Origin: Gracilariopsis chorda
Lineage: Eukaryota; Rhodophyta; Florideophyceae; Gracilariales; Gracilariaceae
Length of the DNA: 64,000 bases
Direction: 5' to 3'
Assembly: GCA_003194525.1 (NCBI GenBank)
Contig: NBIV01000212.1
Coordinates: 1 to 64,000 of the forward strand
Shown here: positions 30,436 to 61,354 of the stretch, in pieces
How positions within the stretch are numbered: the stretch's first letter is position 1
Layout: each line of letters opens with the position of its first letter
Translations under genes and position numbers: made by a program
Notes under the pieces: generated by a model
Told to the model about the DNA's origin: nothing
The model's input: the letters and a program-made list of their open reading frames with translations, nothing else
Databases searched by the model: none

Positions 30436-31375
30436 TTCCTCTTGTCTCAAAACCTCTCACTCTTAATGAGTTGTTCATGTAAAAGGGGGGTATTGTTGAC
30501 TGATGGGAAGCGTTGCGACACAAAAGTGCTTTGCACGCCACCGTACACAAATGCAAAACGCCCATTTAGCGCAACGCATCCCTACCACTTAAATAATGAG
30601 AAGCAGCAGCAGCGAAGCGTACAGTGCACTCGCTGTTGCTGCATGTTGATTGCCTGCTTCCTGCTCAGTGGCTGGCACTACAGTAATTATTGGAGTGCCA
30701 GTCACTCAGCAGTAGCTGCGTTGAGCGACACGTGGCTGGCTCTTTTGCACTGCGCCGTGCAGCACAATGTATAGAGCATATATATTACACTGCTGCTGTC
30801 CAAAACGAGTCTTCCTTGATGAACCTAACCACTATTTTTAATCCCATCTCAGTCTTGGCCAATGGTGCAGTGTCTTAACCTTTTGCTACTTTGGGCACTG
30901 CGTCAGTGTTCTCGGAATGCTAGATAGAGGTGCTAGATGGCACGTTTCTTAGGCAAAAGCTCAAAAATTTTACGAAAATGATAGATTCTGCTAGTTTCTG
31001 GCGCTTGCCAAATAAAATTTTTTTTTTTGGAATTCACACTTCCATATCTTACAGAGTCTTGCCTAACCTGCACTGCGCATCGCTAGTTTCAATTTTGGAG
31101 CAAGTTCATTCTCCAATAAAAGCTAGATACAGATATCAAAATGGCGCTGGCCATGCAGCGGCCATCGCCATTTCGAGCACCCAACCAAAACTAACATTTT
31201 TATTTCCATCTGTTGAATTTCAAACTTCATACTGCCCTAGTTTGACTTCCAACTCATTCTCAGGAACTCATCTGGGCAGCTCTCTCCGTTCTCACACACC
31301 CGACGCACCGCGCATCAGATTCTAATACCACCCATTCCGTCGTCCTAACAGCCTCAACGACACTCCTAAACATCA

Positions 31376-31873
31376 CTAGCCTTCTTCTCCCTCTTCCCTC
31401 TTTCCCTGCCTCCTCTTCAACCGACTCTTAACCTCCAATCCTTCTTTGTCCTTCTCCTCCAACCTCCTTTTCATGCCCCCTCTACCTCCAGGAGTAACCG
31501 GAGACCCACTCCCGACAGCACCTCCCACCCCACCTTCCCCTCCACCTCCATTCATCTTGTTCTGCATATTCTCGACTAGATGCACAGCCCTGTCCACCAG
31601 TAAAAACCGCTTCTCCAACTCGAAAATCCGTCCTTGCAACTCCTCATTCTCCTTCCACAGCCTCCCCAGCTCGTCTCCCACATACGCCACAACCCCAACG
31701 ACGTGCTGCTCTGCCCACACCCCAGCCTCCCTCACCCTCCGGCGCAACTCAGCCACAGCACCCATGGGCACTCCTTCCTCCGACGCACTCAGAACCATCC
31801 CTCCCAACTCCACGACAACCTCCTCAATACACTCATCCAAACGCTCCTTAAGACCTCCCCCAGCGCTCCTCAA
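31376..31873 (-). CDS. Coiled-coil protein, unknown
   Basis: 165 residues. Residues about 55-105 form a likely coiled coil with heptad Leu/Val/Ile spacing (VGDELGRLWKENEELQGRIFELEKRFLLVDRAVHLVENM). Then come a Gly-rich hinge and a basic tail (MKRRLEEKDKEGLEVKSRLKRRQGKREE). The pattern resembles a dimerising nuclear protein, but the basic stretch lies after the coil, so it is not a standard bZIP. It is the outermost gene of the left arm. Only its last residues survive in the right arm (near 60775-60860). No family is recognised. Confidence 0.5.
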   Translation of the reverse strand: MRSAGGGLKERLDECIEEVVVELGGMVLSASEEGVPMGAVAELRRRVREAGVWAEQHVVGVVAYVGDELGRLWKENEELQGRIFELEKRFLLVDRAVHLVENMQNKMNGGGGEGGVGGAVGSGSPVTPGGRGGMKRRLEEKDKEGLEVKSRLKRRQGKREEGEEG

Positions 31874-32507
31874 TAGTCATGAATGAATTTTCAAAAGTCG
31901 ATAATGAATGTCCCACCTCTTCACTTCAACCAACTTCGTCACTGCTTAAATGCACAGCTTATCATCTTGTCATTTGTTCACCTATTGTCCTTTCCAATAC
32001 ACAAAACAATATTTTGAACCTCTACACGATAATGCCTTCACCCTCTTTACTCTTCTTCATACATCAAGCACGCCACAATGCATTCATGTATGAAAAGAAC
32101 CAGTACTTTCTATATCAACAGAATGGACAATCGCGGTATTTGGCTATAGCAACGGGATCCTTCACACCCGTACAATCACTTTCAATTCTCATACATAATC
32201 CCATACTCAATTTTACATCCATTCTTGTTTCATATGAGCTGCCCCTTCATTCTCCCCACACTACACCCATCCCAAGTTTCTTCTCATACTTGTAGACCTT
32301 TCTTTATGGAATATAACAAAGCGAAATGTTTGCAGACATCAGCCCTTCATTATTACACATCATTCGAATGAAGCCGCATAAAAAGTAATCCCCATCGTAG
32401 TAAACCTCTCCCATTCACTATAAACATTCACTATAAACATTCATTATAAAGATCAAAAAGCAATCATCAGACTTAACAAACGTATATAATTTGTTTACTT
32501 ATCATTA
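31874..32507. other. Spacer between coiled-coil and cupin-like genes
   Basis: This AT-richer stretch holds a 138-residue plus-strand frame (31879-32295) without recognised domain and a repeated TTCACTATAAACA motif near 32414-32440. It probably contains the terminator of the cupin-like gene and regulatory DNA. It is absent from the right arm. Confidence 0.4.
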
Positions 32508-33188
32508 TCAATCTCTTTCATCGTCCTCACCTATCAGACCCTCTGCTCCTTTAGGAATCATTTCACCCTCATCGTCATCCTCCTCTTCATAATCTTCATC
32601 AGTGTTCATTTCCGCTGGTTTCAGTTTTTTCTCATCCTCCCCCTCATCAGACGGGTTCTCATCTTCGGCTTCTTGCATAACTAAATCTCTATCTTCAGCT
32701 TCATCTCCCCGCTCCTCTTCCCCTCCTCCCATCTCACATAAATCGCCACGGTCCTCATCATCATTAAAAAAGGGAGGGCGGAAACCACTTTGCCTATGCA
32801 CCACATCCGGGAGATTGTATCCCTCAAGTACAAAGTACATATGGTATCGCATGCAATAGCCTTTCGCTATTGCATCATTGTACCCAGCCCCAGCATGAAA
32901 TACATCCCTTCTTCCAATGAACACAGAAAACGGTGGAACTCTGAACTTCCGAACCATCATAGAAGCCGAAAGCTCTTTCAAGCTACCCTGTGTCATTGTT
33001 AGAGTATGTGGCCGTTCACAAACCCAAATCATGAACGCATCCGGTCCGGATGCAATTGCAAAATACCCCGGGTTCACATTTCTCATCCTGTCATTCTCCG
33101 TCAAACCTCTGAAATCCGTGTCTAGCACCTGCCTCGGACAATCCTCTCCAGTACAAAGGATACGGCCACCCGTGTGAGGGGCATACAT
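32508..33188 (-). CDS. Cupin/double-stranded beta-helix-like protein
   Basis: 226 residues. The central part has F-I-G-R-R-D-V-F-H-A-G-A-G-Y followed about 15 residues later by MRYHMYFV. This matches the 'G-D-x-x-H-A-G ... R-x-H-x-Y' pattern of cupin-like and PhyH-like folds, where the His residues bind metal. A clear HxD/E pair for a 2-oxoglutarate oxygenase is not obvious, so catalysis is unproven. The C-terminal third is strongly acidic (EDRDLVMQEAEDENPSDEGEDEKK, EEDDDEGE), suggesting a chromatin or nuclear setting. It abuts the next ORF with only a 3-bp gap. It is missing from the right arm. Confidence 0.5.
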   Translation of the reverse strand: MYAPHTGGRILCTGEDCPRQVLDTDFRGLTENDRMRNVNPGYFAIASGPDAFMIWVCERPHTLTMTQGSLKELSASMMVRKFRVPPFSVFIGRRDVFHAGAGYNDAIAKGYCMRYHMYFVLEGYNLPDVVHRQSGFRPPFFNDDEDRGDLCEMGGGEEERGDEAEDRDLVMQEAEDENPSDEGEDEKKLKPAEMNTDEDYEEEDDDEGEMIPKGAEGLIGEDDERD

Positions 33189-33191
33189 CGT

Positions 33192-34469
33192 TCAACCTTC
33201 AGACAACCCGAGAGCCGCTGCAATCTGACCGAGCCTTGCATCCAACATGGCTCTCTTTCGAGCAAGAACCGCACCGTTTTCAAGCTCCTCAATTCTGTTC
33301 GCAATCCCTCGTTTGGTTGTGATGAAACGCCCCACCGCCTTGATACCATTCTTAACATCCTTTACCCCTCCTTCATTGATGATCATATTCCAGAAAACAC
33401 GATTCGCTTTGTTCGTGAGATCCGGTTGCGAAACAAAGTCGCGTTCGAAGAAGTCCATCAGTTCTCCTATCACGTATTCGTCCATTTGCAGTCCCCTCTT
33501 CGAATCCTCACTCGCCATGCCTTCATCCGTCCCGAAATTCTCCAGCACACAAAACCCTCTCTCCGACCGCTCCACTCTCTTCTTCGCATAGTAAACACGA
33601 GCCAAGTCCTCTCTCTCAAAAGCGGCCATCCATAACGCTTCCTCTTCATTCGATGCCGTTCCTGATGACGGCATCTTCATGCCCAGCACTGCACGTGTCG
33701 TAGTACCCATCTCTTTGTGCATGTTGCGCGATGCACGCCAGTACACAGCATTACGAACCATTCGGAAGTCATCTGGTGATAGGCACTCCGCCCGATGGTG
33801 CTTCCTCAGATTTATCCTCTGCATCCATGGATAGGAATGCTTCACTGCATTTCCGCTTGCAGGCCACTCACTGGGCAACGAGTATTCCAGGTCCACCCAA
33901 GACATGTCCGCTCCCATAGCCAGCTCTCCTGGCGTACGTAAGCCAGCTGGAAGCTTGTCAGGATTCTTATCGTCAAAGCTGCCTGCGGTTTGCTGCTCCT
34001 TTGCCTCGTCTTCCTCATCATCCACAAAGTCCTCCTGAGCTTCATCCTCGCTTGACTCGAGCACGATGATCTCCTGTGCTGTCAAACACGTCTTCAAATC
34101 TCTCCTTGCCATACTACGCAGCACCTCCACCACCTCCTGCGAGATACCAAAGCCAAGTCGCTTCACACCACGTGCAGTCGGCTTACGATTCGATCGTCTC
34201 TGTTTCTTCACCAGTGGCTCAAAATCAACTGACTCTTCATCTTCATCTTCGTCCAGGACCTCCACTTTACGCTTCTTTGATATTCGCTTACTTCTTCGAG
34301 CCTCCTGGTCAGGATTTGGAGGTTCCTGAGCAGCTTGCTCATTCGGACCAAGCAACTCGATCACGTCCACATCGGCCGCATAGAGAGCAGCAGCAGTAGC
34401 ATCCTGTCCCTGCATGCCCGACAATGCGCTGGACAACGTCCTACGAACCTCTTTCACCTTATTACTCAC
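33192..34469 (-). CDS. Large acidic/basic protein next to ParB-like gene
   Basis: 425 residues with no recognised family. The N-terminal part is nuclear-looking: a cluster RRSKRISKKRKVEV that could be a nuclear localisation signal, then acidic runs (DEDEDEESVDFE, SSEDEAQEDFVDDEEDEAKE). The C-terminal 230 residues look globular (MSWVDLEYSLPSEWPASGNAV, YPWMQRINLRKHHRAECLSPDDFRMVRNAVYWRASRNMH, VIGELMDFFERDF, ANRVFWNMIINEGGVKDVKNGIKAVGRFI). It lies directly downstream of the ParB-like ORF on the same strand. The right-arm version (60017-60778) keeps only the first 60 percent. It may be the C-terminal portion of the same protein as the ParB-like ORF, since the reading begins in sequence that is also open in that neighbour. 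Confidence 0.55.
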   Translation of the reverse strand: MSNKVKEVRRTLSSALSGMQGQDATAAALYAADVDVIELLGPNEQAAQEPPNPDQEARRSKRISKKRKVEVLDEDEDEESVDFEPLVKKQRRSNRKPTARGVKRLGFGISQEVVEVLRSMARRDLKTCLTAQEIIVLESSEDEAQEDFVDDEEDEAKEQQTAGSFDDKNPDKLPAGLRTPGELAMGADMSWVDLEYSLPSEWPASGNAVKHSYPWMQRINLRKHHRAECLSPDDFRMVRNAVYWRASRNMHKEMGTTTRAVLGMKMPSSGTASNEEEALWMAAFEREDLARVYYAKKRVERSERGFCVLENFGTDEGMASEDSKRGLQMDEYVIGELMDFFERDFVSQPDLTNKANRVFWNMIINEGGVKDVKNGIKAVGRFITTKRGIANRIEELENGAVLARKRAMLDARLGQIAAALGLSEG

Positions 34470-34535
34470 TCTGCACTCCAGTGAACTGCATTTATGTTTC
34501 GTATACCACTTCCCCAGACGAGGTATGATATACTT

Positions 34536-35687
34536 TTACACAGTCTGGTCAGAATCGCCGATGGTACCCGTGGTATTCATCACTTCCTGTCCTTTTTTTT
34601 TCTCCTTCATGGAACTCCCCAGCTCACTGCAAATGTCATACGTTCTAGAAGCGCAGTCGAAGAGGTACTTTAGGAAATCCTCAAACGGTCCCATCTTTAC
34701 AGTGGCCGCTGACTTCACTCGAACATGCACCTGTAGACATTGGATAGTAAAACCAAACTTATCTCCTGATATTCCATGCAGAATATCACTAGACACATGA
34801 GTGATTCCAATTTGAGGTGTCTCCTGCCACACCACATCAAAGAACTCTAACAGACCGGGATTACGCGCAAACTTCAGAGCAAGACCAGAATGGCGATTGA
34901 AATGACGTATCTTCCCTTCTTTCCCCTTCATCTCACTGCTACACAACACCCCCGTGATTTGGCTTGGTTTAAGCTTCGACAACTCATACCCATCCTGCTC
35001 TACACCATTACAAATAAACGAAACAGCAGTGTGAATCTTATCTGCGAAGGATATCACCAGAACATTGGAGCTCAAATCATTCAATGTCTTCGCCAGCCAC
35101 AAAACCTCATTCAATGTCATTCTCTGGCTGTCGTTCCGTTCCCAAAGCGTGACGTTCAAACCAGCAGTAATCCGTGCCCATCTCGCACCACCCTGCTCGA
35201 GGTCCAGTAGAACAATCACTCGATGGAAGCCGTCCACCAAAACCAAAGAAACAATCAAACACCCACTCGCATCAATAGCGTCACGAACCGGCACATCCTC
35301 CAACAGGGCCACCACAATAGACCTAAGAGAAGGGAGCCATCCAAATTTCCTCAGTTTGTTCGAAGTATCTCGAAGATGTTTGTCATTCTTCGAACGAACC
35401 ATGTTCTTCGGAAATCGAATGTTGCGGATGTCGATAACGCAATTTTGCTGGTCATAATCATGTCGATTGATGTCTAGGACCCCCAAACTGTTATCCACCT
35501 CTTCCGAAAGAACAGCATCACCTTCATCATATAAAACCCTCTCCTCGGGATCAAGATAGTTCCTGGAGAGTACGTGCACCTCTATGACGTCATCGTAGTA
35601 GCTTGCTCCGACTTCAGGGCCTCCTCGGTTTCCAGAGCCGCCCGCGAGAGCACCTGATGTTCCTCCACCGCTCTGACGGATGTTCAC
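34536..35687 (-). CDS. ParB-like domain protein, left-arm copy
   Basis: 383 residues. The region IDIRNIRFPKNMVRSKNDKH, then LRKFGWLPSLRSIVVALLE, and LVLVDGFHRVIVLLDLEQ followed by ARITAGLNVTLWERND fits the ParB/Srx-like fold: an initial 'I-x-x-I-R-P-N-x-R' strand, a 'pI-x-V' strand, and the hallmark D-G-x-H-R. In bacteria such domains bind centromere DNA or act as nucleases; in eukaryotic mobile elements ParB-like modules accompany DNA methylases. The remainder (NDLSSNVLVISFADKIHTAVSFICNGV and onward) is a helical region without a name. The more complete copy is at 58044-60080. Confidence 0.55.
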   Translation of the reverse strand: MNIRQSGGGTSGALAGGSGNRGGPEVGASYYDDVIEVHVLSRNYLDPEERVLYDEGDAVLSEEVDNSLGVLDINRHDYDQQNCVIDIRNIRFPKNMVRSKNDKHLRDTSNKLRKFGWLPSLRSIVVALLEDVPVRDAIDASGCLIVSLVLVDGFHRVIVLLDLEQGGARWARITAGLNVTLWERNDSQRMTLNEVLWLAKTLNDLSSNVLVISFADKIHTAVSFICNGVEQDGYELSKLKPSQITGVLCSSEMKGKEGKIRHFNRHSGLALKFARNPGLLEFFDVVWQETPQIGITHVSSDILHGISGDKFGFTIQCLQVHVRVKSAATVKMGPFEDFLKYLFDCASRTYDICSELGSSMKEKKKGQEVMNTTGTIGDSDQTV

Positions 35688-35693
35688 CGGAGT

Positions 35694-36296
35694 CTATCCA
35701 CTGCTCTCAAGGCTCTTCACCGGCGCTTTGGTCACCAAAATGCTTGATGGTGTACCAGCAACAGCGGGAAGGCGCTTGACTTGTCTTGCAGTGGTCCTGG
35801 AAGCTGTACTTCTGTGGAAAGTCTTCACATTTGCTCCTAACTGCGGTGAAACCGACTCATTCCCCTCTACGCCTTCATTTTTGACACTCATCATGGCAGC
35901 GTCCCATGCATATAACCCCGCTGAAACCATCTCCTTCAAAGTTGCGGACGGTTCCTCGGAACACCCAAAAACATAAGGGTACTTCTCATCTTGGTGTGAC
36001 GAAATATTTGTCTTAAAGATAACCACGAAGTCCCCTCCAGGTCTCTGCGTAGAGGACAGGGGATGGTTGTGTAGAGAACAACAGAGTCTCGTCCCCGGCC
36101 CCCCAGCAACCCCCACACCGCGCAATTTCGCCTCTCCTACATTCACCTTCGCATCACTACTCCCAACTCGTACGAACAGATTGACCTCCGCATCGCCCTT
36201 AAGCACCTGACCCGTACTGCCCCCAATTGATGGCTTAGGGTGGCTGGCAGTTCGGGTGGCGCCCCGGCTCTTCGCTTTGCCTCGCGTGGTCGGCAT
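35694..36296 (-). CDS. N-terminal region of ParB-like protein, left arm
   Basis: 200 residues starting MPTTRGKAKSRGATRTASH, with a basic, disordered N-terminus. Then comes a compact stretch VNLFVRVGSSDAKVNVGEAKLRGVGV with KYPYVFGCSEEPSATLKEMVSAGLYAWDAAMMSV. In the right arm the same sequence is continuous with the ParB-like domain in one 678-residue frame, so this is the upstream part of the same gene. An earlier in-frame start is possible in the right arm but not in this copy. No separate function is assigned. Confidence 0.55.
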   Translation of the reverse strand: MPTTRGKAKSRGATRTASHPKPSIGGSTGQVLKGDAEVNLFVRVGSSDAKVNVGEAKLRGVGVAGGPGTRLCCSLHNHPLSSTQRPGGDFVVIFKTNISSHQDEKYPYVFGCSEEPSATLKEMVSAGLYAWDAAMMSVKNEGVEGNESVSPQLGANVKTFHRSTASRTTARQVKRLPAVAGTPSSILVTKAPVKSLESSG

Positions 36297-36777
36297 GTCG
36301 ATAACACGTCAGTTCAGCGAAACAGGCTTCCTGGGATTCCGTTTCCGTGATGGCGCGTTTATCTTGTTCCAAGTGGAATACATGGCTGAGTACTTCAACG
36401 GTCGCGCTTGCGTTTTCTTGGCACACGCTGACGTTGAATGATCCCGTGATCACGTATGCTTGGTTCCAAAGAGATAAACGTAAGCACTATATATCGTTTT
36501 CATGACATCCATTGTCGTCAACGTAGCATCCCTGCAATTCCTCTCCCAATTAGTTGCATTGCAAAAAGAATTTGATAATTTTGTGGTCGAGGACCATGGT
36601 CCGAGGTGTCGTGGTGCTCCATCGCGAACGCGATGCAGCGCCAGGACGCGAAAGTTTAATTAAAATTCATGCCTGGCACTCCATCGTGTTCGCAATGGAT
36701 CACCATGACACCTCGGACCATGGTCATCCACTCAAAACTAAGAGAAACATAATCCGAAGAAAACGGGTTCATTCAAG
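36297..36777. promoter_or_regulatory. Divergent intergenic region with hairpin repeat, left arm
   Basis: The region lies between head-to-head genes (ParB-like to the left, methyltransferase cluster to the right). It includes a TATA-like site (CTATATATCG, near 36487-36496). It also holds a long imperfect inverted repeat (about 36590-36725) whose ends read CATGGTCCGAGGTGTC and GACACCTCGGACCATG around a TTTAATTAAAATT centre. Homologous sequence in the right arm is duplicated (57130-57990). A bidirectional promoter is inferred from position, not shown. Confidence 0.55.
36590..36725. repeat. MITE-like inverted repeat
   Basis: The outer 16-bp termini CATGGTCCGAGGTGTC / GACACCTCGGACCATG are perfectly inverted. 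Inner pairs around GCTCCATCG are imperfect. The centre is TTAATTAA. Related copies lie at about 57185-57310 and 57650-57850. Confidence 0.75.
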
Positions 36778-37458
36778 ATGCACGGAACCGGAGAAGAGCT
36801 TATTGATGCTTATCTTGCAGTTCGTGATGACTACGCAGCGACGAGGCAAAATGTGGATGAGACGAGAAGTTTGAAGCACACCGACTTTGTAGAGTTCGCG
36901 GTACAAAGTCGCAACGTTCATGACTCTGCCAAGAAAATGTTTCTAACTCTCATTGGACCGGATTACATCTCGTATTCGGACTCCGAGCTCCGTAAAATGT
37001 CTCTCAGAGGCCCTCCACGTCAACTCTATCTTATGGCAAGGGTGGTGGACGTAAAGGACAGTGAAGAAGACTGGCGTGTAAGGGACTTTTGGAAGGTTTA
37101 TTGTAAAAGGGAAGGGCTTAAAGGAGTTCTCCGTAACGTGTTGTTGTCTGTCTTTTGCAAGTCCCGTGTTCTGGGAGCAACCAACAAATCTTCCGCTTTC
37201 CACACGGATCCTTGCACCGACTTTGAAATGGTCATTGGGTTGTCTATGGTGCAACAGAATGCCGTGGATAGGAAAGGAAGTGGTAGGAAGAGGAAAAGGG
37301 GCATGGCAGCTAAGAAGTTCTCGAAAGTGAGTTTTTCGGACATGACCCAGAGTCAGAGAGTCGGGTATGGTGTGCAGCTGGTGACCAGGGCTTGGGATTG
37401 TTTCGCCCAATTCCTCGGGTTTCCCAACGTTGAGGTTATGATCTTGCCTTACATTTGA
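36778..37458 (+). CDS. First ORF of the methyltransferase cluster, unknown
   Basis: 226 residues starting MHGTGEELIDAYLAVRDD. No family is recognised. Mid-protein it has a globular block (LRGPPRQLYLMARVVDV, VRDFWKVYCKREGLKGVLRNVLLSVFCKSR, AFHTDPCTDFEMVIGLSMVQQNAV), a basic patch RKGSGRKRKRGMAAKKFSK, and a second block (SQRVGYGVQLVTRAWDCFAQFLGF). It is directly upstream of, and on the same strand as, the methyltransferase. A small frame at 37540-37809 (VVVQEKLFEISAPSKLDALKRFI) continues the coding region, and the pieces may form one long protein. The right-arm counterparts are 56938-57126 and 56446-56907. Confidence 0.5.
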   Translation: MHGTGEELIDAYLAVRDDYAATRQNVDETRSLKHTDFVEFAVQSRNVHDSAKKMFLTLIGPDYISYSDSELRKMSLRGPPRQLYLMARVVDVKDSEEDWRVRDFWKVYCKREGLKGVLRNVLLSVFCKSRVLGATNKSSAFHTDPCTDFEMVIGLSMVQQNAVDRKGSGRKRKRGMAAKKFSKVSFSDMTQSQRVGYGVQLVTRAWDCFAQFLGFPNVEVMILPYI

Positions 37459-37754
37459 CTGGACTATATCAATGTAGTCTTCACCGATATCGCACAACGC
37501 TCCATGGGCGTCTAACACAAAGAATGTTCCAAACAGTTTGTGGAGGAGAAGAACGTCACCACCGTAGAAGAAAACGTTACCAAATGGGCATGGAATCTGC
37601 CGGACCCAATGGATACAGCGCTTCGCCTTTGTGCCAAAGAATACCTTGGTGACCTTTCTAATGTGGTGGTACAAGAGAAACTGTTCGAAATCTCTGCTCC
37701 GAGCAAATTGGATGCCCTCAAAAGGTTCATCATCACGAAAAAGAAACTTTTCCC

Positions 37755-38753
37755 TTGCGGTTTGAGAACTTTAGTGGATCTCTTGTCACTACGGTTCAAG
37801 AGACCATAACGCCTCTAACGCTCATTGCATTGCATGGAAGCAATGTCAAAGTACATCAAGCTGTGAAACCAGAGCGCGCAGAAGACGTTGAAATCAGTAT
37901 GGAGCCGGCAGAAACTGGTATGGCTGATGGTGGGAACGAACGTGCTGAGCGTGTGGAAGGTGGTGATCAGGGTGAGTTGGAAGAAGTGGAAGAGATTGAG
38001 ATGGTAGAGGATGCGGAACGTGGTACTGCGGAACGTGGTACTGCACCAAAGGCAACTGAAGGACTGCAGACAACAGCTTTGTTGCAGAACTTATCGTATA
38101 ATGTCGAAGGCACGGGGATTCGTGCACCACCGTACCCTATGAATTTGGATGATGTGATAGCTTACAAGTATTGTGAGAAGGAGATGTCCCGCAATTTCCG
38201 TCTGTACAACTGCAAGTTCGAAAATCTCATCGAACTTGACGACAACAAGTCTGGCGAAAGCGAGGTATCTATTGAAGGAAGGGTACAGTTCTTGCTTTCC
38301 GATCCGCCATATGGGACTCGTTCTGAGCGTCGTTTGGAGAACAGCCAACACGATATTCTGACAGAGAAGGGCATGAACAGGTCAGCGAGGAGGTCATCAA
38401 AGCTTCTACGTCCTGGTGGACATATTATACAGTTCTGCTCATGGGATCAGGTACCGTTGTGGCAGGATGTGCTACGGAAAGTTACCTACATGGATGAATC
38501 TGATACGATGCGTTACTTTTTTTTCGTCGACGAACAGCCCATCCATTTCGTACGGTCTTTAGGTAATACGACCGGTAACGTTGGGAGAAAAAGTTGCCAG
38601 TTGCACCAGACGAAAGAATACGCTGTACATGCTGTTCGTTCTGGAGTTACTTATGCACGACAGCACCGGATGGTCAACTATGAGAACTTCAATTATGTTG
38701 CTTCACGATACCCAGAGTATCATGCAGTCATGGATCAGGTGCCACCGATGTAA
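37755..38753 (+). CDS. DNA/RNA amino-methyltransferase, DPPY motif part (left arm)
   Basis: 332 residues. After an acidic low-complexity N-terminus (EGGDQGELEEVEEIEMVEDAE), the frame contains LLSDPPYGTRSE (DPPYG at 38301-38315), the catalytic motif IV of N6-adenine and N4-cytosine methyltransferases. It is followed by LLRPGGHIIQFCSWDQVPLWQDVL, the strand-helix that normally follows. The SAM-binding motif I comes after it in the next ORF (38778 onward), so the motif order IV-then-I corresponds to the beta class. The enzyme would transfer methyl from SAM to exocyclic amino groups of DNA. The left copy is divided between frames; the right copy (53851-54810) has both motifs in one frame. Confidence 0.75.
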   Translation: MRFENFSGSLVTTVQETITPLTLIALHGSNVKVHQAVKPERAEDVEISMEPAETGMADGGNERAERVEGGDQGELEEVEEIEMVEDAERGTAERGTAPKATEGLQTTALLQNLSYNVEGTGIRAPPYPMNLDDVIAYKYCEKEMSRNFRLYNCKFENLIELDDNKSGESEVSIEGRVQFLLSDPPYGTRSERRLENSQHDILTEKGMNRSARRSSKLLRPGGHIIQFCSWDQVPLWQDVLRKVTYMDESDTMRYFFFVDEQPIHFVRSLGNTTGNVGRKSCQLHQTKEYAVHAVRSGVTYARQHRMVNYENFNYVASRYPEYHAVMDQVPPM

Positions 38754-53059: not shown

Positions 53060-53389
53060 CTAATCAATGACTGTCGTTCCATCCTCCACATTCAAATGGG
53101 TTTGCCAGTCGTAAACATCACCGTATCTGACGAAGAATTCTTCTCCTTGCTCTATGTCGGCTGTCGCCTCCATCTTAATAAGTTTGTAGTCCGTTATTCC
53201 CCCTGGTGTTCGTCCCACTCCCGGTGTCCGTTTCATTCGCACATTAGCTTCCCTCTTTTTCACGAGGCCATCCACCATGGCATCTAACTGTTTATCCCCT
53301 TCGACGTACTTTGGATCATTGATATACCCCGCAATACAAAAAGTGAAGGAACCACCCATAAAAGGGGGTTTGCTTGTTTTCCATGCCAA
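53060..53389 (-). CDS. SET domain, C-terminal part (right arm)
   Basis: 109 residues with FCIAGYINDPKY (Asn motif position), EANVRMKR and ATADIEQGEEFFVRYG (Gly-Glu-Glu ... Tyr motif). It is the counterpart of 39536-39928. It overlaps the upstream SET frame (53284-53784) in another frame, so the gene is split here as in the left arm, although at different points of the overlap. The catalytic Tyr region is intact. Catalysis is not certain because the His of the Asn-His motif is not seen. Confidence 0.6.
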   Translation of the reverse strand: MAWKTSKPPFMGGSFTFCIAGYINDPKYVEGDKQLDAMVDGLVKKREANVRMKRTPGVGRTPGGITDYKLIKMEATADIEQGEEFFVRYGDVYDWQTHLNVEDGTTVID

Positions 53390-53784
53390 TTCGTCAGCTG
53401 TTTTCGATGGGGAAGTGATTGGAACTGTTGACCGTAGACTTCTATCTCCACCGCATACTTCCGGAAGCGATCCTTCGTCACACCCATGACTCCCTCCCCG
53501 TAGGTCTTGTGCACTTCTTTCCCATTGGAAAGGTCATGATAAACCAACAACCCGTAGAAATAGCACACTACCTCGCCTGCAGCAATTCGACGAGTTGCAA
53601 ACACTCCAACACTAGCCTTTTCGTGACGAATACTAGACTTGCCCACTCGCAACCCATATTGCACAGCCTTTATTGCCAGTAGAGACTTCATGTTCTCCAG
53701 ATTCATTCTTCCCTGCAGCTCCCTCGGCCATCCATCCATAGCTTTCTTCCTTCCCAACTTCCCTAGAATTTCACTTTGCCACAA
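53284..53784 (-). CDS. SET domain, N-terminal part (right arm)
   Basis: 166 residues. VGVFATRRIAAGEVVCYFYG is the SET N-terminal motif. It is preceded by a helical segment that leads out of the methyltransferase (SEILGKLGRKKAMDG, NLENMKSLLAIKAVQYGLRV) and followed by LLVYHDLSNGKEVHKTYGEGVMGVTKD. The position right after the motif-I part of the methyltransferase repeats the left-arm order, so the linkage of the two enzymes predates the duplication. Confidence 0.65.
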   Translation of the reverse strand: MWQSEILGKLGRKKAMDGWPRELQGRMNLENMKSLLAIKAVQYGLRVGKSSIRHEKASVGVFATRRIAAGEVVCYFYGLLVYHDLSNGKEVHKTYGEGVMGVTKDRFRKYAVEIEVYGQQFQSLPHRKQLTNWHGKQANPLLWVVPSLFVLRGISMIQSTSKGINS

Positions 53785-53850
53785 AGTGGAGAGAAAGTCG
53801 ACGAGGTGTGGGGGAAGAATTTGGTACGGTGTAAATCCGGCGACAGCCCT

Positions 53851-54810
53851 TCATAACACGGTGTGCCTGCTTCTTCTCATTGGGAATGCAGAGGAAACAC
53901 AATGGGCCATCTTTCGAAGCTCCTGGCTCTTCTCAATATCCGTGTGTCCTTCCCGTATTATGGAAGCGAAGCGAACAATAGCGGCATGTCTGGCGTGTTC
54001 AAAGCAAGCTTTGTCCGGTTCACACCCCACAAACTTCCGATGCTTGGGCAGTTCCATGCACGCCATCGCTGTCGAGAACGTTCCAGCAAACATGTCGACC
54101 ACGAGGTCTCCTGGCTGACTGAACCTACAAATCAGCTCTTTCGACAGCGCCCTACAATTCTGTTCCGGTCGCACCCTCTTCCTCGTATACTTCCCATCCG
54201 GGTTTTTCACAGACCACATGAGCATCTCACTATTTGACATCGGCGGCACCTGATAAATGATTGCATGATACGCGGGGTATCGCGAAGCAACATAATTGAA
54301 GTTCTCATAGTTGACCATCCAGTGCTGTTGTGCATAAGTAACTCCAGAACGAACAGCATATACAGCGTATTCTGTCGTCTGGTGCAACCGGCAACTTCTT
54401 CTCCCAACGTTACTCGTCGTATTACCTAAAGACCGTACGAAATGGAGGGGCTGTTCGTAGACGACAAAGGAGTAACGCATCGTATCAGAGTCATCCATGT
54501 AGGTAACTTTCCGTAGCACATCCCGCCACAACGGTACCTGATCCCATGAGCAGAACTGTATAATATGTCCACCAGGACGTAGAAGCTTTGAAGACCTTCT
54601 CGCTGACCTGCTCATGCCCTTCTCTGTCAGAATATCGTGTTCGCTGTTCTCCAAACGACGCTCAGAACGAGTCCCGTATGGCGGATCGGAAAGCAGGAAC
54701 TGTAACCTTCCTTCAATAGATAACTCGCTTTCGCCAGACTTGTTTTCGTCAACTTCGATGAGATTTTCGAACTTGCAGTTGTGAAGACGGAAGTTGCGGG
54801 TGTAGTGCAA
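53851..54810 (-). CDS. Amino-methyltransferase with motifs IV and I in one frame (right arm)
   Basis: 319 residues on the minus strand. LLSDPPYGTRSE (motif IV, DNA 54662-54687) comes first, then GGHIIQFCSWDQVPLWRDVL, then about 120 residues later SQPGDLVVDMFAGTFSTAMACMELP with FVGCEPDKACFEHARHA (motif I, SAM pocket). The IV-then-I order is the beta class of DNA N6A/N4C methyltransferases. Its original N-terminus continues upstream but has been cut off by the solo LTR (54801-55713); the frame's apparent start lies in LTR sequence. This is the best single copy for testing the methyltransferase assignment. Confidence 0.8.
   Translation of the reverse strand: MHYTRNFRLHNCKFENLIEVDENKSGESELSIEGRLQFLLSDPPYGTRSERRLENSEHDILTEKGMSRSARRSSKLLRPGGHIIQFCSWDQVPLWRDVLRKVTYMDDSDTMRYSFVVYEQPLHFVRSLGNTTSNVGRRSCRLHQTTEYAVYAVRSGVTYAQQHWMVNYENFNYVASRYPAYHAIIYQVPPMSNSEMLMWSVKNPDGKYTRKRVRPEQNCRALSKELICRFSQPGDLVVDMFAGTFSTAMACMELPKHRKFVGCEPDKACFEHARHAAIVRFASIIREGHTDIEKSQELRKMAHCVSSAFPMRRSRHTVL
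54796..54800. repeat. Target site duplication GCGGG, left copy
   Basis: The same five bases recur at 55714-55718 directly after the solo LTR. Confidence 0.9.
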
Positions 54811-55713
54811 TACATTCCCGCGTACGGGCGATGGTGAAACTCATATCTGAGGTGTACTCGGTGCGAGCGATGAAGCGGGATGCATGAATTTTAGCCCCCG
54901 TTTACCGGGCTAATTAGCGGTCGGGTTACCCAGGGTGGTTATGGGAACATTCATATTTTGTGGTACTTGCCTGGCAAGGGTGGTGGACACGTGGCTACAG
55001 CCCCGGCCAGGAGGCCCAAAACGGCTACTTATTTTAGTATAGTTTAGGGGTTAATTTTACTTAGGCTAGTGCACTACCTACTGTACTGCACTGAGCTAGT
55101 ACTTGAGCGTCGGCCGCACGGCGGCGAGCTCACCAAGAAAAGTAACAAGAGTTCGGCTCTGACTCTATTCGCCATGCGAAGTGTCTAACTCCTCGCGGAG
55201 GTACACCGCTTGCCCGATAGTTTCACCCGACTCGCACCACCGAGGAGACCGTGCTCGTCGTACCCAGTGGGTTGTGACCACTCGTGGTATTCGTTGTTGT
55301 CGTGTGACCGCCCGTACAGGCCCTATCTCCGCCCCAGTTTTGGGTATTGATATTACCGACGTGTGTCGTGAGACCGTGAGACCATCCCTTCCCCTCATAT
55401 CCCCTAACCGCCGCGCGGTGCGTGTTCGTGTGTGTGTATCGGCACCCCCCTCCGGGGTCTGTTCCCGCTTTCTGCACGCCCCCGTCGGGTGGTCCCTTTC
55501 CCTCTTTTGTTCCACTGTTCGCAGGCTACTTCCGGACCAGCCGTGGTTCCGACCCGTTCTAACCCCTAAACCTCCGAGGTACATCCAGGCTCCCGACGGA
55601 GTTACACCCGTCATACGGGACACGGAGGGCTCTACCCAGCTGGGCCTACCTCTCCAAGAGAGCAAGGCTTCGAGCTGCCTTGGGTGCCTTTCCCACACCG
55701 GGATTGCACCACA
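54801..55713 (+). mobile_element. Solo LTR of the 1-5167 chromovirus family
   Basis: 913 bp, TGTAGTGCAA to TTGCACCACA, flanked by GCGGG (54796-54800 and 55714-55718). It is closely similar to the LTR at 4253-5167. The homologous site in the left arm (near 38190) is empty and carries a single copy of the target. It is inserted in the methyltransferase gene. A solo LTR arises by recombination between the two LTRs of a full insertion. Confidence 0.95.
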
Positions 55714-55718
55714 GCGGG

Positions 55719-56076
55719 ACATCTCCTTCTCACAATACTTGTAAGCTATCACATCATCCAAAGTCATAGGGTACGGTGGTGCACGAATCCCCGTGCCTTC
55801 GACATCATACGATAAGTTCTGCGACAAAGCTGTTGTCTGCAGTCCTTCAGTGGCCTTTGGTGCAGTACCACGTTCCGCAGTACCATTTTCCGCATCCTTT
55901 ACCATCTCTATCTCTTCCACTTCTTCGAAATCACCCTGATCACCACCTTCCACACGCTCAGCACGTTCGTTCCCACCACCATCCATACCAGTTTCTACCG
56001 GCTCCATACTGATTTCAACGTCTTCTGCGGGCTCTGGTTTCACAGCTTGATGTACTTTGACATTGCTTCCATGCAA
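55719..56076 (-). pseudogene. N-terminal region of the methyltransferase gene (right arm), cut off by LTR
   Basis: Counterpart of about 37830-38190. It includes an acidic low-complexity region (EGGDQGDFEEVEEIEMVKDAE) and GTGIRAPPYPMTLDDVIAYKYCEKEMSRC. The frame runs on into the solo LTR, so the 303-residue ORF that spans 55165-56076 is a chimera. The sequence upstream of the motif IV region is thus separated by 0.9 kb of LTR from its catalytic part. Confidence 0.7.
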
Positions 56077-56445
56077 TGCAATGAGCTTTAGAGGCTTTAT
56101 GGTGTCTTGAACCGTAGTGACAAGAGATTCACTAAAGTTATCAAACCGCAGAGGGAAAAGTCTCGTTTTCGTGATGATGAACCTTTTGAGGGCATCTCAT
56201 TTGTTTGGAGCAGAGATGTCGAACAGTTTCTCTTGTACCACCACATTAGAAAGGTCACCAAGATATTCTTTGGCACAAAGGCGAAGCGCTGTATCCACTG
56301 GGTCCGGCAGATTCCATGCCCATTTGGTAACGTTTTCTTCTACGGTGGTGACGTTCTTCTCCTTCACAAACTGTTTGGAACAATCTTTGTGTTAGAAGCC
56401 CATGGAGCGTTGTGCGATGGTGAAGACTACACTGATATAGTCGAG

Positions 56446-56907
56446 TCAAATGTAAGACAAGATCATAACCACAACGTTGGGAAACCCGAGGAATTGGGCG
56501 AAACAATCCCAAGCCCTGGTCACCAGCTGCACACCATACCCGACTCTCTGACTCTGGGTCATGTCTGAAAAACTCACTTTCGAGAACTTCTTAGCTGCCA
56601 TGCCCCTTTTCCTCTTCCTACCACTTCCTTTCTTATCCACGGCATTCTGTTGCACCATAGACAACCCAATGACCATTTCACAGTCAGTGCAAGGATCCGT
56701 GTGGAAAGCGGAAGATTTCTTGGTTGCTCCCAGAACACGGGACTTGCAAAAGACAGATAGCAACACGTTACGGGGAACTCCTTTAAGCCCTTCCCTTTTA
56801 CAATAAACCTCCCAAAAGTCCCTTACACGCCGGTCTTCTTCACTTTCCTTTACGTCCACCACTCTTTCCATAAGATAGAGTTGACGTGGAGGGCCTCTGA
56901 GGGACAT
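56446..56907 (-). CDS. First methyltransferase-cluster protein, C-terminal part (right arm)
   Basis: 153 residues, the counterpart of about 36998-37458. It holds the globular block LRGPPRQLYLMERVVDV, FWEVYCKREGLKGVPRNVLLSVFCKSR, AFHTDPCTDCEMVIGLSMVQQNAV, the basic patch KKGSGRKRKRGMAAKKFSKV and SQRVGYGVQLVTRAWDCFAQFLGF. The N-terminal part is in the ORF at 56938-57126. No family is recognised. Sequence to about 56107, antisense to the frame at 56107-56568, corresponds to the short left-arm frame at 37540-37809. Confidence 0.5.
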   Translation of the reverse strand: MSLRGPPRQLYLMERVVDVKESEEDRRVRDFWEVYCKREGLKGVPRNVLLSVFCKSRVLGATKKSSAFHTDPCTDCEMVIGLSMVQQNAVDKKGSGRKRKRGMAAKKFSKVSFSDMTQSQRVGYGVQLVTRAWDCFAQFLGFPNVVVMILSYI

Positions 56908-56937
56908 GTTACGGAGCTCGGAGTCTGAATACGAGAT

Positions 56938-57126
56938 TTAATCCGGTCCAATGAGAGCAACAAACATTTTCTTGGCAGAGTCATGAACGTTGCGACTTTG
57001 TCCCGCGAACTCCACAAAGTCGGTGTGCTTCAAACTTCTCGTCTCATCCACATTTTGCCTCGTCGCTGCGTAGTCATCACGAACTGCAAGATAAGCATCA
57101 ATAAGCTCTTCTCCGGTTCCGTGCAT
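56938..57126 (-). CDS. First methyltransferase-cluster protein, N-terminal part (right arm)
   Basis: 62 residues starting MHGTGEELIDAYLAVRDDYAATRQ, the same start as the left copy (36778). The start is preceded by the divergent promoter region and is shared by both arms, which makes this ATG a likely true start. It ends at an early stop that the left copy does not have; the rest lies in 56446-56907. Confidence 0.5.
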   Translation of the reverse strand: MHGTGEELIDAYLAVRDDYAATRQNVDETRSLKHTDFVEFAGQSRNVHDSAKKMFVALIGPD

Positions 57127-57129
57127 CTT

Positions 57130-57990
57130 GAATGAACCCGTTTCCTTCGGATTATGTTTCTCTTCGTTTTGGGTCGAGGAACATGGTCCAAGGTGTCATG
57201 GTGATCCATCGTGAGCACGACCGAGCGCCAGGCATGAATTTTAATTAAAATTTCGCGTCCTGGCGCTCCATCGTGTTCGCGATGGAGCACCACGACACCT
57301 TGGACCATGGTCCTCGACCAAAAAATTATCAAATTCTTTTTGCAATGCAATTAATTGGGAGGGGAATTGCAGGGATGCTACGTTGACGACAATGGATGTC
57401 ATGAAAACGATATATAGTGCTTACGTCCATCCCTTTGGAACCTAGCAGGCGTGATCACGGGAGCTTCAAAAGAAAGGGGTAAAACTGTTGGAGACGACCA
57501 CTCCGGAGCTTTATTTAACAAGAAATAGTTGTTCTTCGGGTTCAATAGAAGTTTTCAATCGCCCAAACTGACGCAACGAATGCGGTTGCGAAGAATGCGC
57601 AAGACGCTTTTGACTTGGTTGCCACGGATAATATTTCTCTTCGTTTTGGGTCGAGGTCCGTGGTCCGAGGTGTCATGGTGCTCCATCGCGATAACGATGG
57701 AGCGCCAGGCATGAATTTTAATTAAAATTTCGCGTCCTGGCGCTCCATTGTAATTGCGATGGAGCGCCAGGCATGAATTTTAATTAACATTTCGCGTCCT
57801 GGCGCTCCATCGTAATCGCGATGGAGCACCACGACACCCCGGACCACAGACCTCAACCAAAAAATTAACAAATTCTTTTGCATTGCAAGTAGTTGGGAGG
57901 GGAATTGCAGGGATGCTACGTTGACGACAATGGATGTCATGAAAACGATATATAGTGCTTACGTTTATCTCTTGGGAACCAAGCGTACGT
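57130..57990. promoter_or_regulatory. Duplicated divergent promoter region, right arm
   Basis: It contains two copies of the left-arm intergenic segment. Each has the MITE-like inverted repeat (about 57185-57310 and 57650-57850), an AAAAAATTA(A/T)CAAATTCTTT stretch, and a TATA-like site (CGATATATAGTG near 57408 and near 57948). The second hairpin is enlarged by tandem TTAATTAA/CGCGTCCTGGCGCTCCAT pieces. A 160-bp filler (57470-57630) separates the copies. The left arm has one copy (36297-36777). Confidence 0.6.
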
Positions 57991-58043
57991 GATCACAGGA
58001 GCATTGGACGTCAGCGGGTGCCGAGAAAACGCAAGCGCGACCT

Positions 58044-60080
58044 TTGACGTACTCAGCCATATATCCCACTGGGAATAAGATAAACGCGCCATCACGGAAA
58101 CGGGCTCCGAGAAACCCTGTTTCGCCAAAGAGACGTGTTATTGACATACCGACCACGCGAGGCAAAGCGAAGAGCCGGGGCGCCACCCGAACTGCCAGCC
58201 ACACTGAGCCATCAATTGGGGGCAATACGGGTCAGGTTCGTAAGGGCGATGCGGAGGTCAATCTGTTCGTACGAGTTGGGAGTAGTGATGCGAAGGTGAA
58301 GATAGGAGAGGCGAAATTGCGCGGTGTGGGTGTTGCTGGGGGGCCGGGGACGAGACTCTGTCGTTCTCTACACAACCATCCCCTGTCCTCTACGCAGAGA
58401 CCTGGAGAGGACTTGGTGGGTATGTTTAAGACAAATATTTCGTCACACCAAGATGAGAAGTACCCTTATGCTTTTGGAGGTCCCAAGGAACCGCCCGCAA
58501 CTTTGAAGGAGATGGTTTCAGCGGGTTTATATGCATGGGACAGTGCGATGATGAGTGTCACAAATGAAGGCAAAGAGGGGAATGAGTCGGTTCCACCGCA
58601 TTCAGGAGCAAATGTGAAGACTGTCCACAGATGTGAAGCTTCCAGGACCACTGCAAGACAAGTCAAGCGCCTTTCCGCTGTTGCTGGTACACCATCAAGC
58701 ATTTTGGTAACCAAAGCGCCGGTGAAGAGCCTTGAACGCGGTGGAGAGGCTCCGGTGAAAACCCGTCAGAGCGGTGGAGGAACATCAGGTGCTCTCGCGG
58801 GCGGCTCTGGAAACCGAGGAGGCCCTGAAGTCGGAGCAAGCTTCGATGATGACGTCATAGAGGTGCACGTACTCTCCAGGAACGATCTTGATCCCGAGGA
58901 GAGGGTTTTATATGATGAATGTGATGCTGTTCCTTCGGAAGAGGTGGATAACAGTTTGGGTGTCTTAGACATTAATCGAGATGATTATGACCAGCACAAT
59001 TGCATAATCGATATCCACAACATTCGATTTCCGAAGAACATGGTTCGTTCGAAGAATGAAAAACATTCTCGAGATACTTCGATCAAACTGAGGAACTTGG
59101 GATGGCTCCCTTCTCTTGGGTCGATTGCAGTGTCCCTGTTGGAGGATGTGTCGGTTCGTGATGCTATTGATGCGAGTGGGCGCTTGATTGTTCCTGTGGT
59201 TATGGTGGATGGCTTCCATCGAGTGATTGTTCTACTGGACCTCGAGCAGGATGGTGCGAAATGGGCACGGATTACTGCTGGTTTGAACGTCACGCTTTGG
59301 GAACGGAACGACGGCCGGAGAATGGCATTGAATGAGCTGTTGTGGTTGTGGAAGACGTTGAATGATTTGAGCTCCAATGTTCTGGTGATGTCCTTTGCAG
59401 ATAAGATTCCCACTGCTGTTTCGTTTATTCGTAATGGCGTAGAGCAGGATGGGTATGAGTTGTCGAAGCTTAAACCAAGCCAAATCACGGGGGTGTTGTG
59501 GAGCAGTGAGATGAAGGGGAAAGAAGGGAAGATACGTCATTTCAATCGCCATTCTGGTCTTGCTCTGAAGTTTGCGCGTAATCCCGGTCTGTTAGAGTTC
59601 TTCGATGTGGTGTGGCAGGAGACACCTCAAATTGGAATCACTCATGTGTCTAGTGATATTCTGCTTGGAATATCAGGAGATAAGTTTTGTTTTACTATCC
59701 AATGTCTACAGGTGCATGTTCGAGTGAAGTCAGCGGCCACTGTAAAGATGGGACCGTTCGAGGATTTCCGAAAGTACTTCTTCGACTGCGCTTCTAGAAC
59801 GTATTACATTTGCAGTGAGCTGGGGAGTTCCATGAAGGAGAAAAAAAAAGGACAGGAAGTGATGAATACCACGGTTACCATCGGCGATTCTGACCAGACT
59901 GTGTCAAAGTATATCATATCTCGTCTGGGGAAGTGGTATACGAAACGTAAATGCAGTTCACTGGAGTCCAGAGTGAGTAATAAGGTGAAAGAGGTTCGTA
60001 GGACGTTGTACAGCGCTTGTCGGGCATGCAGAGACAAAATGCTACTGCTGCTGCTCCCTCTGCGGCCGATTTGGACGTGA
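58044..60080 (+). CDS. ParB-like domain protein, right-arm copy
   Basis: 678 residues, the longest intact frame of the element. Order: a basic disordered N-terminus (TTRGKAKSRGATRTAS), a compact domain VNLFVRVGSSDAKVKIGEAKLRG with KYPYAFGGPKEPPATLKEM, a Gly-rich linker, then the ParB-like fold with IHNIRFPKNMVRSKN (about 59017-59058), LGWLPSLGSIAVSLLEDV, VVMVDGFHRVIVLLDLEQ (DGFHR at about 59208-59222) and ARITAGLNVTLWERND, and a helical C-terminal region. The D-G-x-H-R motif is the hallmark of ParB/Srx-like domains. Functions in this superfamily include DNA binding and nuclease activity. The left arm has the same regions in two frames (34536-35687 and 35694-36296). Confidence 0.6.
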   Translation: MTYSAIYPTGNKINAPSRKRAPRNPVSPKRRVIDIPTTRGKAKSRGATRTASHTEPSIGGNTGQVRKGDAEVNLFVRVGSSDAKVKIGEAKLRGVGVAGGPGTRLCRSLHNHPLSSTQRPGEDLVGMFKTNISSHQDEKYPYAFGGPKEPPATLKEMVSAGLYAWDSAMMSVTNEGKEGNESVPPHSGANVKTVHRCEASRTTARQVKRLSAVAGTPSSILVTKAPVKSLERGGEAPVKTRQSGGGTSGALAGGSGNRGGPEVGASFDDDVIEVHVLSRNDLDPEERVLYDECDAVPSEEVDNSLGVLDINRDDYDQHNCIIDIHNIRFPKNMVRSKNEKHSRDTSIKLRNLGWLPSLGSIAVSLLEDVSVRDAIDASGRLIVPVVMVDGFHRVIVLLDLEQDGAKWARITAGLNVTLWERNDGRRMALNELLWLWKTLNDLSSNVLVMSFADKIPTAVSFIRNGVEQDGYELSKLKPSQITGVLWSSEMKGKEGKIRHFNRHSGLALKFARNPGLLEFFDVVWQETPQIGITHVSSDILLGISGDKFCFTIQCLQVHVRVKSAATVKMGPFEDFRKYFFDCASRTYYICSELGSSMKEKKKGQEVMNTTVTIGDSDQTVSKYIISRLGKWYTKRKCSSLESRVSNKVKEVRRTLYSACRACRDKMLLLLLPLRPIWT

Positions 60081-60778
60081 TCGAGTTGCTTGTTCTGAAT
60101 GAGGAAGCTGATCAGGAGCCTCTGAACGCTGACCCGGAGCCTCGAAGAAGTAAGCGAATCTCAAAGAAGCGTAAAGTGGAGGTCCTGGACGAAGATGAAG
60201 ATGAAGAGTCAGTTGATTTCGAGCCACCAGTGAAGAGGCAGAGACCATCGAATCGTAAACCGACTGCACCTGATGTAAAGCGACTTGGCTTTGGTATCTC
60301 GCAGGAGGTGGTGGAGGTGCTGCGTAGTATGGAAAGGAGAGATTTGAAGAGGTGGTTGACAGCACAGGAGATCATTGTGCTCGAGTCAAGCGAGGATGAA
60401 GCTCAAGAGGACTTTGTGGATGATGAGGAAGACGAGGCAGAGGAGCAGCAAACCGCAGGCAGCTTTGACGATAAGAATCCTGACAAGCTTCCAGCTGGCT
60501 TAAGTACGCCAGGAGAGCTGGCTATGGGAATGGACATGTCTTGGGTGGACCTGATACACTCGTTGCCGAGTGAGTGGCCTGCAAGTGGAAATGCAGTGAA
60601 GTATTCCCATCCATGGATGCAGAGGATAAATCTGAGGAAGCACCATCGGGCGGAGTGCCTATCACCTCATGACTTCCGAATGGTTCATCATGCTGTGTAC
60701 TGGCGTGCGTCACGCAACATGCACAAAGAGATGGGTACTACGACACGTGCAGTGCTGGGCGTGAAGATGGGTTCGTGA
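60017..60778 (+). CDS. Acidic/basic protein (right arm, truncated copy)
   Basis: 253 residues. It is the counterpart of the first 60 percent of 33192-34469: RRSKRISKKRKVEV, DEDEDEESVDFE, QEVVEVLRSMERRDLKRWLTA, SEDEAQEDFVDDEEDEAEE, MSWVDLIHSLPSEWPASGNAV, YPWMQRI-type block, ending at VLGVKMGS. The frame stops where the 2.2-kb right-arm deletion begins, so the C-terminal globular part and the cupin-like gene are gone. It overlaps the end of the ParB-like ORF in another frame. Confidence 0.5.
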   Translation: MSGMQRQNATAAAPSAADLDVIELLVLNEEADQEPLNADPEPRRSKRISKKRKVEVLDEDEDEESVDFEPPVKRQRPSNRKPTAPDVKRLGFGISQEVVEVLRSMERRDLKRWLTAQEIIVLESSEDEAQEDFVDDEEDEAEEQQTAGSFDDKNPDKLPAGLSTPGELAMGMDMSWVDLIHSLPSEWPASGNAVKYSHPWMQRINLRKHHRAECLSPHDFRMVHHAVYWRASRNMHKEMGTTTRAVLGVKMGS

Positions 60779-61354
60779 AAAGGAGGTTGGAGGAGAAGGA
60801 CGAAGAAAGATTGGAGGTTAAAAGTCGATTAAAGAGGAGGCATGGAAAGAGGTAAGAGGGAGAAGAAGGCTAGTGATGTTTAGGAGTGTCGTTGAGGCTG
60901 TTAGGACGACGGAATGGGTGGTATTGGAATCTGATGCGCGGTGCGTCGGGTGTGTGAGAACGGAGAGAGCTGCCCAGATGAGTTCCTGAGGATGAGTTGG
61001 AAGTCAAACTAGGGCAGTATGAAGTTTGAAATGCAAAAGATGGAAATAAAAATGTTAGTTTTGGTTGGGTGCTCGAAATGGCGCTGGCCGCTGCGAGGCC
61101 AGCGCCATTTCGAGATCTGTATCTAGCTTTTAGTGGAGAATGAACTTGCTCCAAACTTGAAACTAGCGATGCACAGTGCAGGCTAGGCAAGGCTCTGTAA
61201 GATATGGAAGTGTGAATTCCAAAAAATTTCTTTTTTAATTGGCAAGCGCCAGAAACTAGCAGAATCTATCATTTTCGTAAAATTTTTGAGCTTTTGCCTA
61301 AGAAACTTGCGATCTAGCACCTCTATCTAGCATTCCGATAACACCGACGCATGG
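60779..61354. other. Outer end of right arm
   Basis: No gene. It contains the remnant of the coiled-coil gene tail (60779-60870) and a noncoding terminal part. A perfect-looking short inverted repeat TGGCGCTGGCC...GGCCAGCGCCA lies at about 61079-61107. The outermost sequence GCGTCGGTGTTATCGGAATGC (as reverse complement) pairs with the left end. Confidence 0.5.

Follow-up and report, generated by a model that had tools for sequence, protein, structure and literature searches.

The window analysed here, 64,000 nucleotides of the red alga Gracilariopsis chorda (positions 1–64,000 of the 137,735-bp contig NBIV01000212.1, C212, in a genome of 91.3 Mb and 1,081 contigs), contains a palindrome of about 30 kb. 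An initial annotation had taken it for a giant palindromic mobile element, a view that was not supported. The arms are mosaic and switch ancestry at 41.0–41.4 kb, share flanking DNA on their inner sides, enclose a loop that belongs to one side only, and sit at a gap in the target without a target site duplication (TSD). In our view the palindrome is probably mosaic and of secondary origin: one transposon family would have supplied two independent insertions in inverted orientation, and copying would have filled a later break between the two. The more interesting part is the family itself with its fused epigenetic cargo, for which intact relatives elsewhere in the genome suggest a Plavaka-type transposon carrying a DNA methyltransferase-SET protein.

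Self-comparison of the window gave two inverted arms, A (30899–45457) and B (47534–61351), around a loop at 45458–47533, in agreement with the arms, loop and coordinates first annotated. The inverted matches, at 93–95% identity, paired 30899–31473 with 61351–60776, 33672–36709 with 60769–57734, 36434–38192 with 57469–55714, and 38188–45457 with 54800–47534. Positions 31473–33672 of arm A had no counterpart in arm B. In bins of 500 bp, the identity of A and B was 92–97% at 33.4–39.9 kb, 84–88% at 39.9–40.9 kb, 93% at 40.9–41.4 kb and 96–99% at 41.4–45.4 kb, with 89% in the final 62 bp of the arm.

Each arm is a composite of more than one element: a transposon unit, a repeat that we call X, and a piece of a gypsy element. 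Unit A (30899–44108, forward strand) has the outer end CGTCAGTGTTCTCGG.. and the inner end ..AACACCAACG. Unit B (48885–61351, reverse strand), delimited by self-comparison and outer-junction matches, lies in inverted orientation. Copies of X, 98.3% identical, adjoin the inner ends of unit A (44109–44711, forward) and unit B (48282–48884, reverse). On side A, X is followed by a gypsy long terminal repeat (LTR) of 318 bp and the start of gag (44712–45457, forward), an inverted copy that stops at the joint between 45457 and 45458, where microhomology was not evident. In the loop (45458–47533, reverse), the gypsy element continues with the remainder of gag, up to and including its reverse transcriptase (RVT_1, E 7.6e-10).

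The unit boundaries were set by junction searches, taking the best 40 of 154 (inner), 600 (A outer) and 533 (B outer) candidates, so that rarer copies may escape. At the outer junction of A all 39 other matches, including arm B and both units of C314 (copies elsewhere in the genome are named by C numbers), began at 30895–30906, with the unit start at ~30899–30901. At the outer junction of B the 39 others, including arm A and the same two C314 units, all ended at 61349–61360. The inner end lies at ~44104–44108, and all 34 matches to the unit only ended at 44098–44114. Elsewhere in the genome, tens of further insertions share these transposon ends. Repeat X was unbroken, without a unit, across the junction point in 4/4 fetched copies (C5, C125, C317 and C21), indicating that the unit-X junction is an insertion into X. 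Among the inner-junction matches, this junction was confined to the two arms of the window. Single-arm copies do occur elsewhere in the host genome: C42 and C167, for example, are single units without X and gypsy. Further copies of the palindrome were absent among the best 40 matches of each junction search, and at the outer junctions none of the other matches joined a unit to the helicase-like repeat of the flanks.

The two outer flanks belong to the same kind of helicase-like repeat (helicase by eye, from the open reading frame (ORF) 29139–29924). The left flank (29616–30895, forward) stops at unit A, and the repeat resumes after unit B (61352–62653, forward). A related copy at 23957–24660 has both flank parts contiguous save for ~66–72 bp; its empty site, with the 66–72 bp that are absent at the palindrome, lies at 24291–24363 (forward). 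The target stretch was intact in 39 of 39 other scored repeat copies (of 453 candidates). At the outer ends, where the left flank ends with CACTG and the right one begins with CATGG, no TSD was found and ~66–72 bp of the target were missing, which argues against movement as a palindrome. Within the family, the right unit of C314 has the TSD TAT and its own empty site, and for C34 (TC) and C42 (AA) TSDs were read from the flanks alone. None was seen at C167 or at the window ends. The helicase-like repeat (29139–30895, 61352–62653, 23957–24660) also has five copies in C121, mostly ~2 kb apart, perhaps as a subtelomeric array.

The relationship between the arms changes along their length. At 33.7–36.6 kb, A was nearest to C230 (0.938), C112 (0.937) and B (0.936), and B was nearest to C7 and C230 (0.940) and slightly less close to A (0.936). 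At 38.3–40.0 kb, where the comparison copies were only C314L, C314R and C34, A and B were not notably close. At 40.0–41.15 kb the identity was 0.862 for A–B, 0.919 for A–C7 and 0.920 for B–C332b, and a tree of nine sequences rejected shared ancestry for A and B (p 2.3e-84) and grouped B with C332b (support 100/100). This speaks against the earlier idea that one element was duplicated head to head. At 41.4–44.1 kb the A–B identity was 0.982, the next-best being 0.920, and a tree of six sequences for 41.35–44.1 kb had A and B as sisters with support of 100/100. Site patterns in bins 40201–41000 numbered 43 for B+C332b, three for A+B and one for A+C332b; in bins 41401–44104 they numbered 75 for A+B, four for B+C332b and one for A+C332b.

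The switch zone, just outside which the lineages differ and inside which they are sisters, lies at 41000–41400 in A (equivalent to ~51600–52010 in B). Just outside it B is C332b-like, and inside it C332b is next of kin to both arms. It is A that changes sides, so the inner tract of A seems to have come from B or B's template. The sister tract extends beyond the inner unit into X (98.3%) and gypsy DNA, at 97.2% for the LTR and 94.9% for gag. Over the inner tract, 91 substitutions and 3 gap openings separate the arms. For the outer 250 bp of B the best relatives were 95% alike; arm A, at 93%, ranked 39th among the best 40.

Several observations weigh against two independent insertions with copied inner parts. 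The tree for 33.7–36.6 kb (21 sequences) was star-like; A and B were not sisters, yet their sisterhood was not rejected (p 0.178). At 36.76–38.3 kb the arms were mutually nearest by a small margin (0.957 vs 0.944), and from the outer end of A, arm B ranked fifth among the best 40, at 93% vs 91–94% for the others. Gag differed more than the inner unit (22/428 vs 50/2709 positions, p 0.00016). The whole gag part was nearest to B, but its final 120 bp fitted another gypsy copy better (95.0% vs 92.5%), and the template may have changed late, near the joint. No donor locus combining a unit in X with gypsy turned up among the best 40 of the 154 inner-junction candidates. Identity to the empty-site relative was 73% for one flank and 80% for the other, so that a former single flank copy is an inference. 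Finally, in C314, a second inverted pair, no target site was identified for the left unit.

In the proposed course of events, two family members would have inserted separately, face to face and ~70 bp apart, into one helicase-like repeat, as judged from the flanks. A double-strand break would then have occurred between the insertions and been filled by copying. Because the broken ends were inverted homologs, both would have copied the same tract: the inner part of one unit, then the same flank with X, the gypsy LTR and gag. Side A would have halted in gag and side B continued into the reverse transcriptase, after which the ends would have been joined at 45457/45458. The order of copying is our reconstruction, and the template would have been B or a lost third locus. 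Break-and-copy is the simplest account of the chimeric units, the shared but unequally long X-gypsy flanks, the joint without evident microhomology, the target gap and the lack of a TSD.

Chimeric inverted copies are also described for Drosophila Galileo (PMC2775673), in a study where chimerism separates recombination from hybrid-element insertion. The Galileo case, as described there, is an inversion with exchanged target duplications, whereas here the inner tract and the outside flank are doubled on both sides. Filler DNA at transposon excision breaks in rice, in the account of PMC4423477, is similar in that break repair copies foreign segments and flanking DNA is deleted. The fillers given there measure 1–123 bp; here the copied DNA spans several kb and lies between inverted homologs. 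Two ordinary insertions plus break repair can yield a convincing 30-kb “palindromic element”, and segment-wise trees against other family copies are a test that separates a mosaic from a true palindromic element.

If the palindrome had instead arisen at an X-gypsy locus and moved whole into the helicase repeat by its two like 5′ ends, as a composite or hybrid element, its outer boundaries would be unit ends and its flanks adjacent parts of one repeat kind, as they are. We regard such a transposition as unlikely: a target duplication was not found, ~66–72 bp of the target were lost, and the arms would initially have been identical, yet their common origin is rejected at 40.0–41.15 kb. It also demands a later replacement of the outer part in at least one arm. 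A simple fold-back at the gypsy element, duplicating one arm in inverted orientation, is highly improbable. It would explain the flanking DNA within the inner arms and the one-sided loop, but it would be expected to run beyond the end of the unit into the right flank and to leave an even divergence along the arm, and neither was seen. The lineage switch at 41.2 kb also speaks against it, unless one arm had its outer part replaced subsequently. Inversion of the Galileo type by crossing-over was rejected by reasoning, as the flanks misfit and X stands at both inner ends.

Repeats of this kind are difficult to assemble, and the palindrome could in principle stem from a misjoin of copies or from a chimeric, palindromic read. 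A read with a missed adapter would give near-identical arms, and not an inner tract with 91 substitutions and 3 gap openings. Indels private to each arm and outer flanks that complement each other as parts of one repeat kind point the same way, and together these observations make an assembly artefact very unlikely.

As a second homogenised inverted pair, C314 shows that inside homogenisation is not restricted to the window. Its two inverted units (inner ends 32473 and 35973) were 98.8% alike in the inner 5.5 kb and 91.8% in the outer 489 bp. By segment, their identity was 0.990–0.996 inside 40.0 kb, 0.976 at 38.3–40.0 kb and 0.960 at 36.8–38.3 kb, dropping outward more gently than in the window arms. 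C332 was considered as a further palindrome and rejected: its units were 74–76% alike, indicating independent insertions, and form an inverted pair without homogenisation. C112 has two methyltransferase copies ~28 kb apart in a diverging arrangement. Four of the six adjacent pairs with a gap of <20 kb were convergent (p 0.038), a weak and post hoc result, and two of these four (C332 and C37) combine different subfamilies.

With respect to the element class, a fragment of the Plavaka-related transposase proposed initially was found in both arms, at 42528–43793 in A (reverse) and 49209–50474 in B (forward). Both remnants correspond to the N-terminal third, amino acids (aa) 1–339 of 1083, of P0032, and tblastn gave no match beyond aa 339 in either arm. 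The window units are non-autonomous relics, with the transposase cut and the methyltransferase gene broken. The window fragment matched PF18759 below the cut-off (E 9.3e-5, 22.2 bits, cut-off 26.3). A 659-aa ORF of C34 had zero Pfam matches, yet it had eight homologs, seven of them with PF18759. Full-length genomic ORFs matched P0032 (PF18759) across aa 3–1077, and stop-free Plavaka frames of 1138–1160 aa were found at C259, C31, C550, C386 and C53 (42 of 275 candidates scored). Two of these, C31 and C550, hold in addition the methyltransferase-SET gene and the gene of an unclassified protein, labelled ParB-like in the initial annotation, in unchanged order. The termini, CGTCGGTGTT.., are neither those of PlavakaA (TGT..ACA) nor those of PlavakaB (CATCA..TGATG).

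The three genes recur together across the genome. The methyltransferase-SET exon had at least 148 genomic matches (148 of 246 candidates scored) and the unclassified protein at least 79 (64 of 332 candidates scored). Among the 141 loci of the methyltransferase, a Plavaka match followed downstream within 12 kb, on the opposite strand, at 80; at 50 the unclassified protein had a match upstream within 10 kb, likewise on the opposite strand; and both were present at 35. Same-strand controls at these loci gave 5 (Plavaka) and 0 (unclassified protein).

Beta-class DNA N4/N6 methyltransferases have the motif DPPY ahead of FxGxx. This order was seen in the alignment of the methyltransferase-SET proteins, with C34 itself having DPRY. 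PF01555 was recognized in P0002 (E 3.5e-17), P0003 (E 1.6e-17), C34 (E 1.6e-16) and the second exon piece of arm A (2.2e-10), and the profile was closest to DpnA structures, with CcrM structures also found. By domain and motif order, the gene is predicted to encode a methyltransferase of the beta class. SET (PF00856) was detected in the homologs P0002 (E 2.1e-6), P0003 (2.6e-6) and P0007 (7.6e-8), which places a SET domain in the family; C34 (0.0054) and the window (0.019) scored under the cut-off. Both domains had been named in the initial annotation. In arm A the gene, with an N-terminal part, PF01555 and SET, lies at 36925–39925 (forward) and has stops and a frameshift; in arm B (53063–56979, reverse) it is split by an insert and frameshifted. 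That insert (54800–55715, 0.9 kb) we read as a solo LTR (TG..CA, TSD GCGGG), and a second copy of its sequence lies at 4252–5169. The relatives P0002 and P0003 align along a single gene, from the N-terminal part (window 36925–37728, overlapping ORF 36742–37458) through PF01555 to SET. The separate “cupin-like” protein annotated earlier, if ORF 36742–37458 was meant, is the N-terminal part of this gene.

There were 31 homologous proteins, among them P0001 and P0004 from Gracilariopsis chorda and P0029 from Porphyra umbilicalis, and the best named relatives were BWQ96 proteins of Gracilariopsis chorda. A viral origin was rejected: five pattern matches were obtained, yet the protein had zero relatives in viral contigs. 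The ratio of nonsynonymous to synonymous substitution rates (dN/dS) was 0.18–0.21 between subfamilies (one young copy, C34, vs three old ones) and 0.58–0.70 among the three old copies. Such values would fit selection on the active lineage that is relaxed once a copy has inserted, and the fusion appears to be kept by young relatives under purifying selection.

The ParB-like gene lies at 34416–36449 (reverse) in A, with three in-frame stops, and at 57993–60080 (forward) in B, as an open frame of 695 aa. It is inside a stop-free open frame of 1,417 aa in C550 and C204, and C31 has one TAG. Its dN/dS among six old copies was 0.52–0.99. The ParB label could not be confirmed: it had relied on a DGFHR motif recognized by eye only, and zero ParB matches were obtained in Pfam, NCBIfam, PHROGs and PDB. 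A protein search gave zero homologs (best 7999 candidates scored), and the predicted fold, with a predicted local distance difference test score (pLDDT) of 27, was unusable. Between the two divergent genes there is a hairpin (36579–36740; DNA fold z = −10.9), of which self-comparison showed several expanded, imperfect copies in arm B (57148–57863). At the corresponding place, C34 has an 86-bp stretch identical to its own reverse complement. A link between the hairpin and the ParB-like protein would be speculation.

As in fungal Plavaka, relatives of the transposase carry PF18759 (seven of eight matches), and the TSDs may have the fungal length of 2–3 bp. Some fungal Plavaka, too, are described as carrying an epigenetic enzyme gene, TET/JBP (Kojima 2025, PMC12730594). 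Different from the elements described there are the red algal host, the methyltransferase-SET fusion accompanied by an unclassified protein, and the termini CGTCGGTG. The same source mentions SET in oomycete HarbingerS and MuDR, and Mariners of large viruses are described with a methyltransferase (PMC3627910); these are likewise DNA transposons with a chromatin- or DNA-methylating gene. Unlike them, as described in the two sources, the family here fuses SET with a DNA methyltransferase. Neither a transposon-borne fusion of this kind nor Plavaka in red algae was recognized in searches of open-licence papers, one of which, with 10 of 11,013 matches listed, is a weak test.

The carried writer probably serves to modify the transposon's own chromatin. 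A broader picture, which we offer tentatively and hold to be rather unlikely as a whole, would have red algae host a large, active DNA transposon able to write its own epigenetic state, with one protein methylating DNA (N6A or N4C) and histone and a divergent partner binding the hairpin; its inverted neighbouring copies would repeatedly break and be copied into mosaic palindromes. Transposon-encoded dual writers of DNA and histone marks become a testable question, with a dN/dS of the fusion near 0.2 between subfamilies.

Some minor features were also observed. Arm A is without ~1.8 kb that C42 and C167 have (0.2 kb in the left unit of C314), with the joint at 31870–31877 and an overlap of 8 bp. 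GC skew was very strong over the inner units, +0.4 to +0.5 at 40000–44000 and mirrored at −0.49 at 50000–52000. In C34, inverted repeats of 826 bp, 92% alike (60775–61600 and 72350–73165), enclose a young family copy nested within them, forming an outer element whose inverted ends are long. Repeat 21510–22096 recurs near family insertions in C167, C314 and C34, and 7563–10793 is a copy of the repeat into which the right unit of C314 inserted. Positions 5752–6804 and 11388–12439 form a direct repeat of 1.05 kb with 92% identity.

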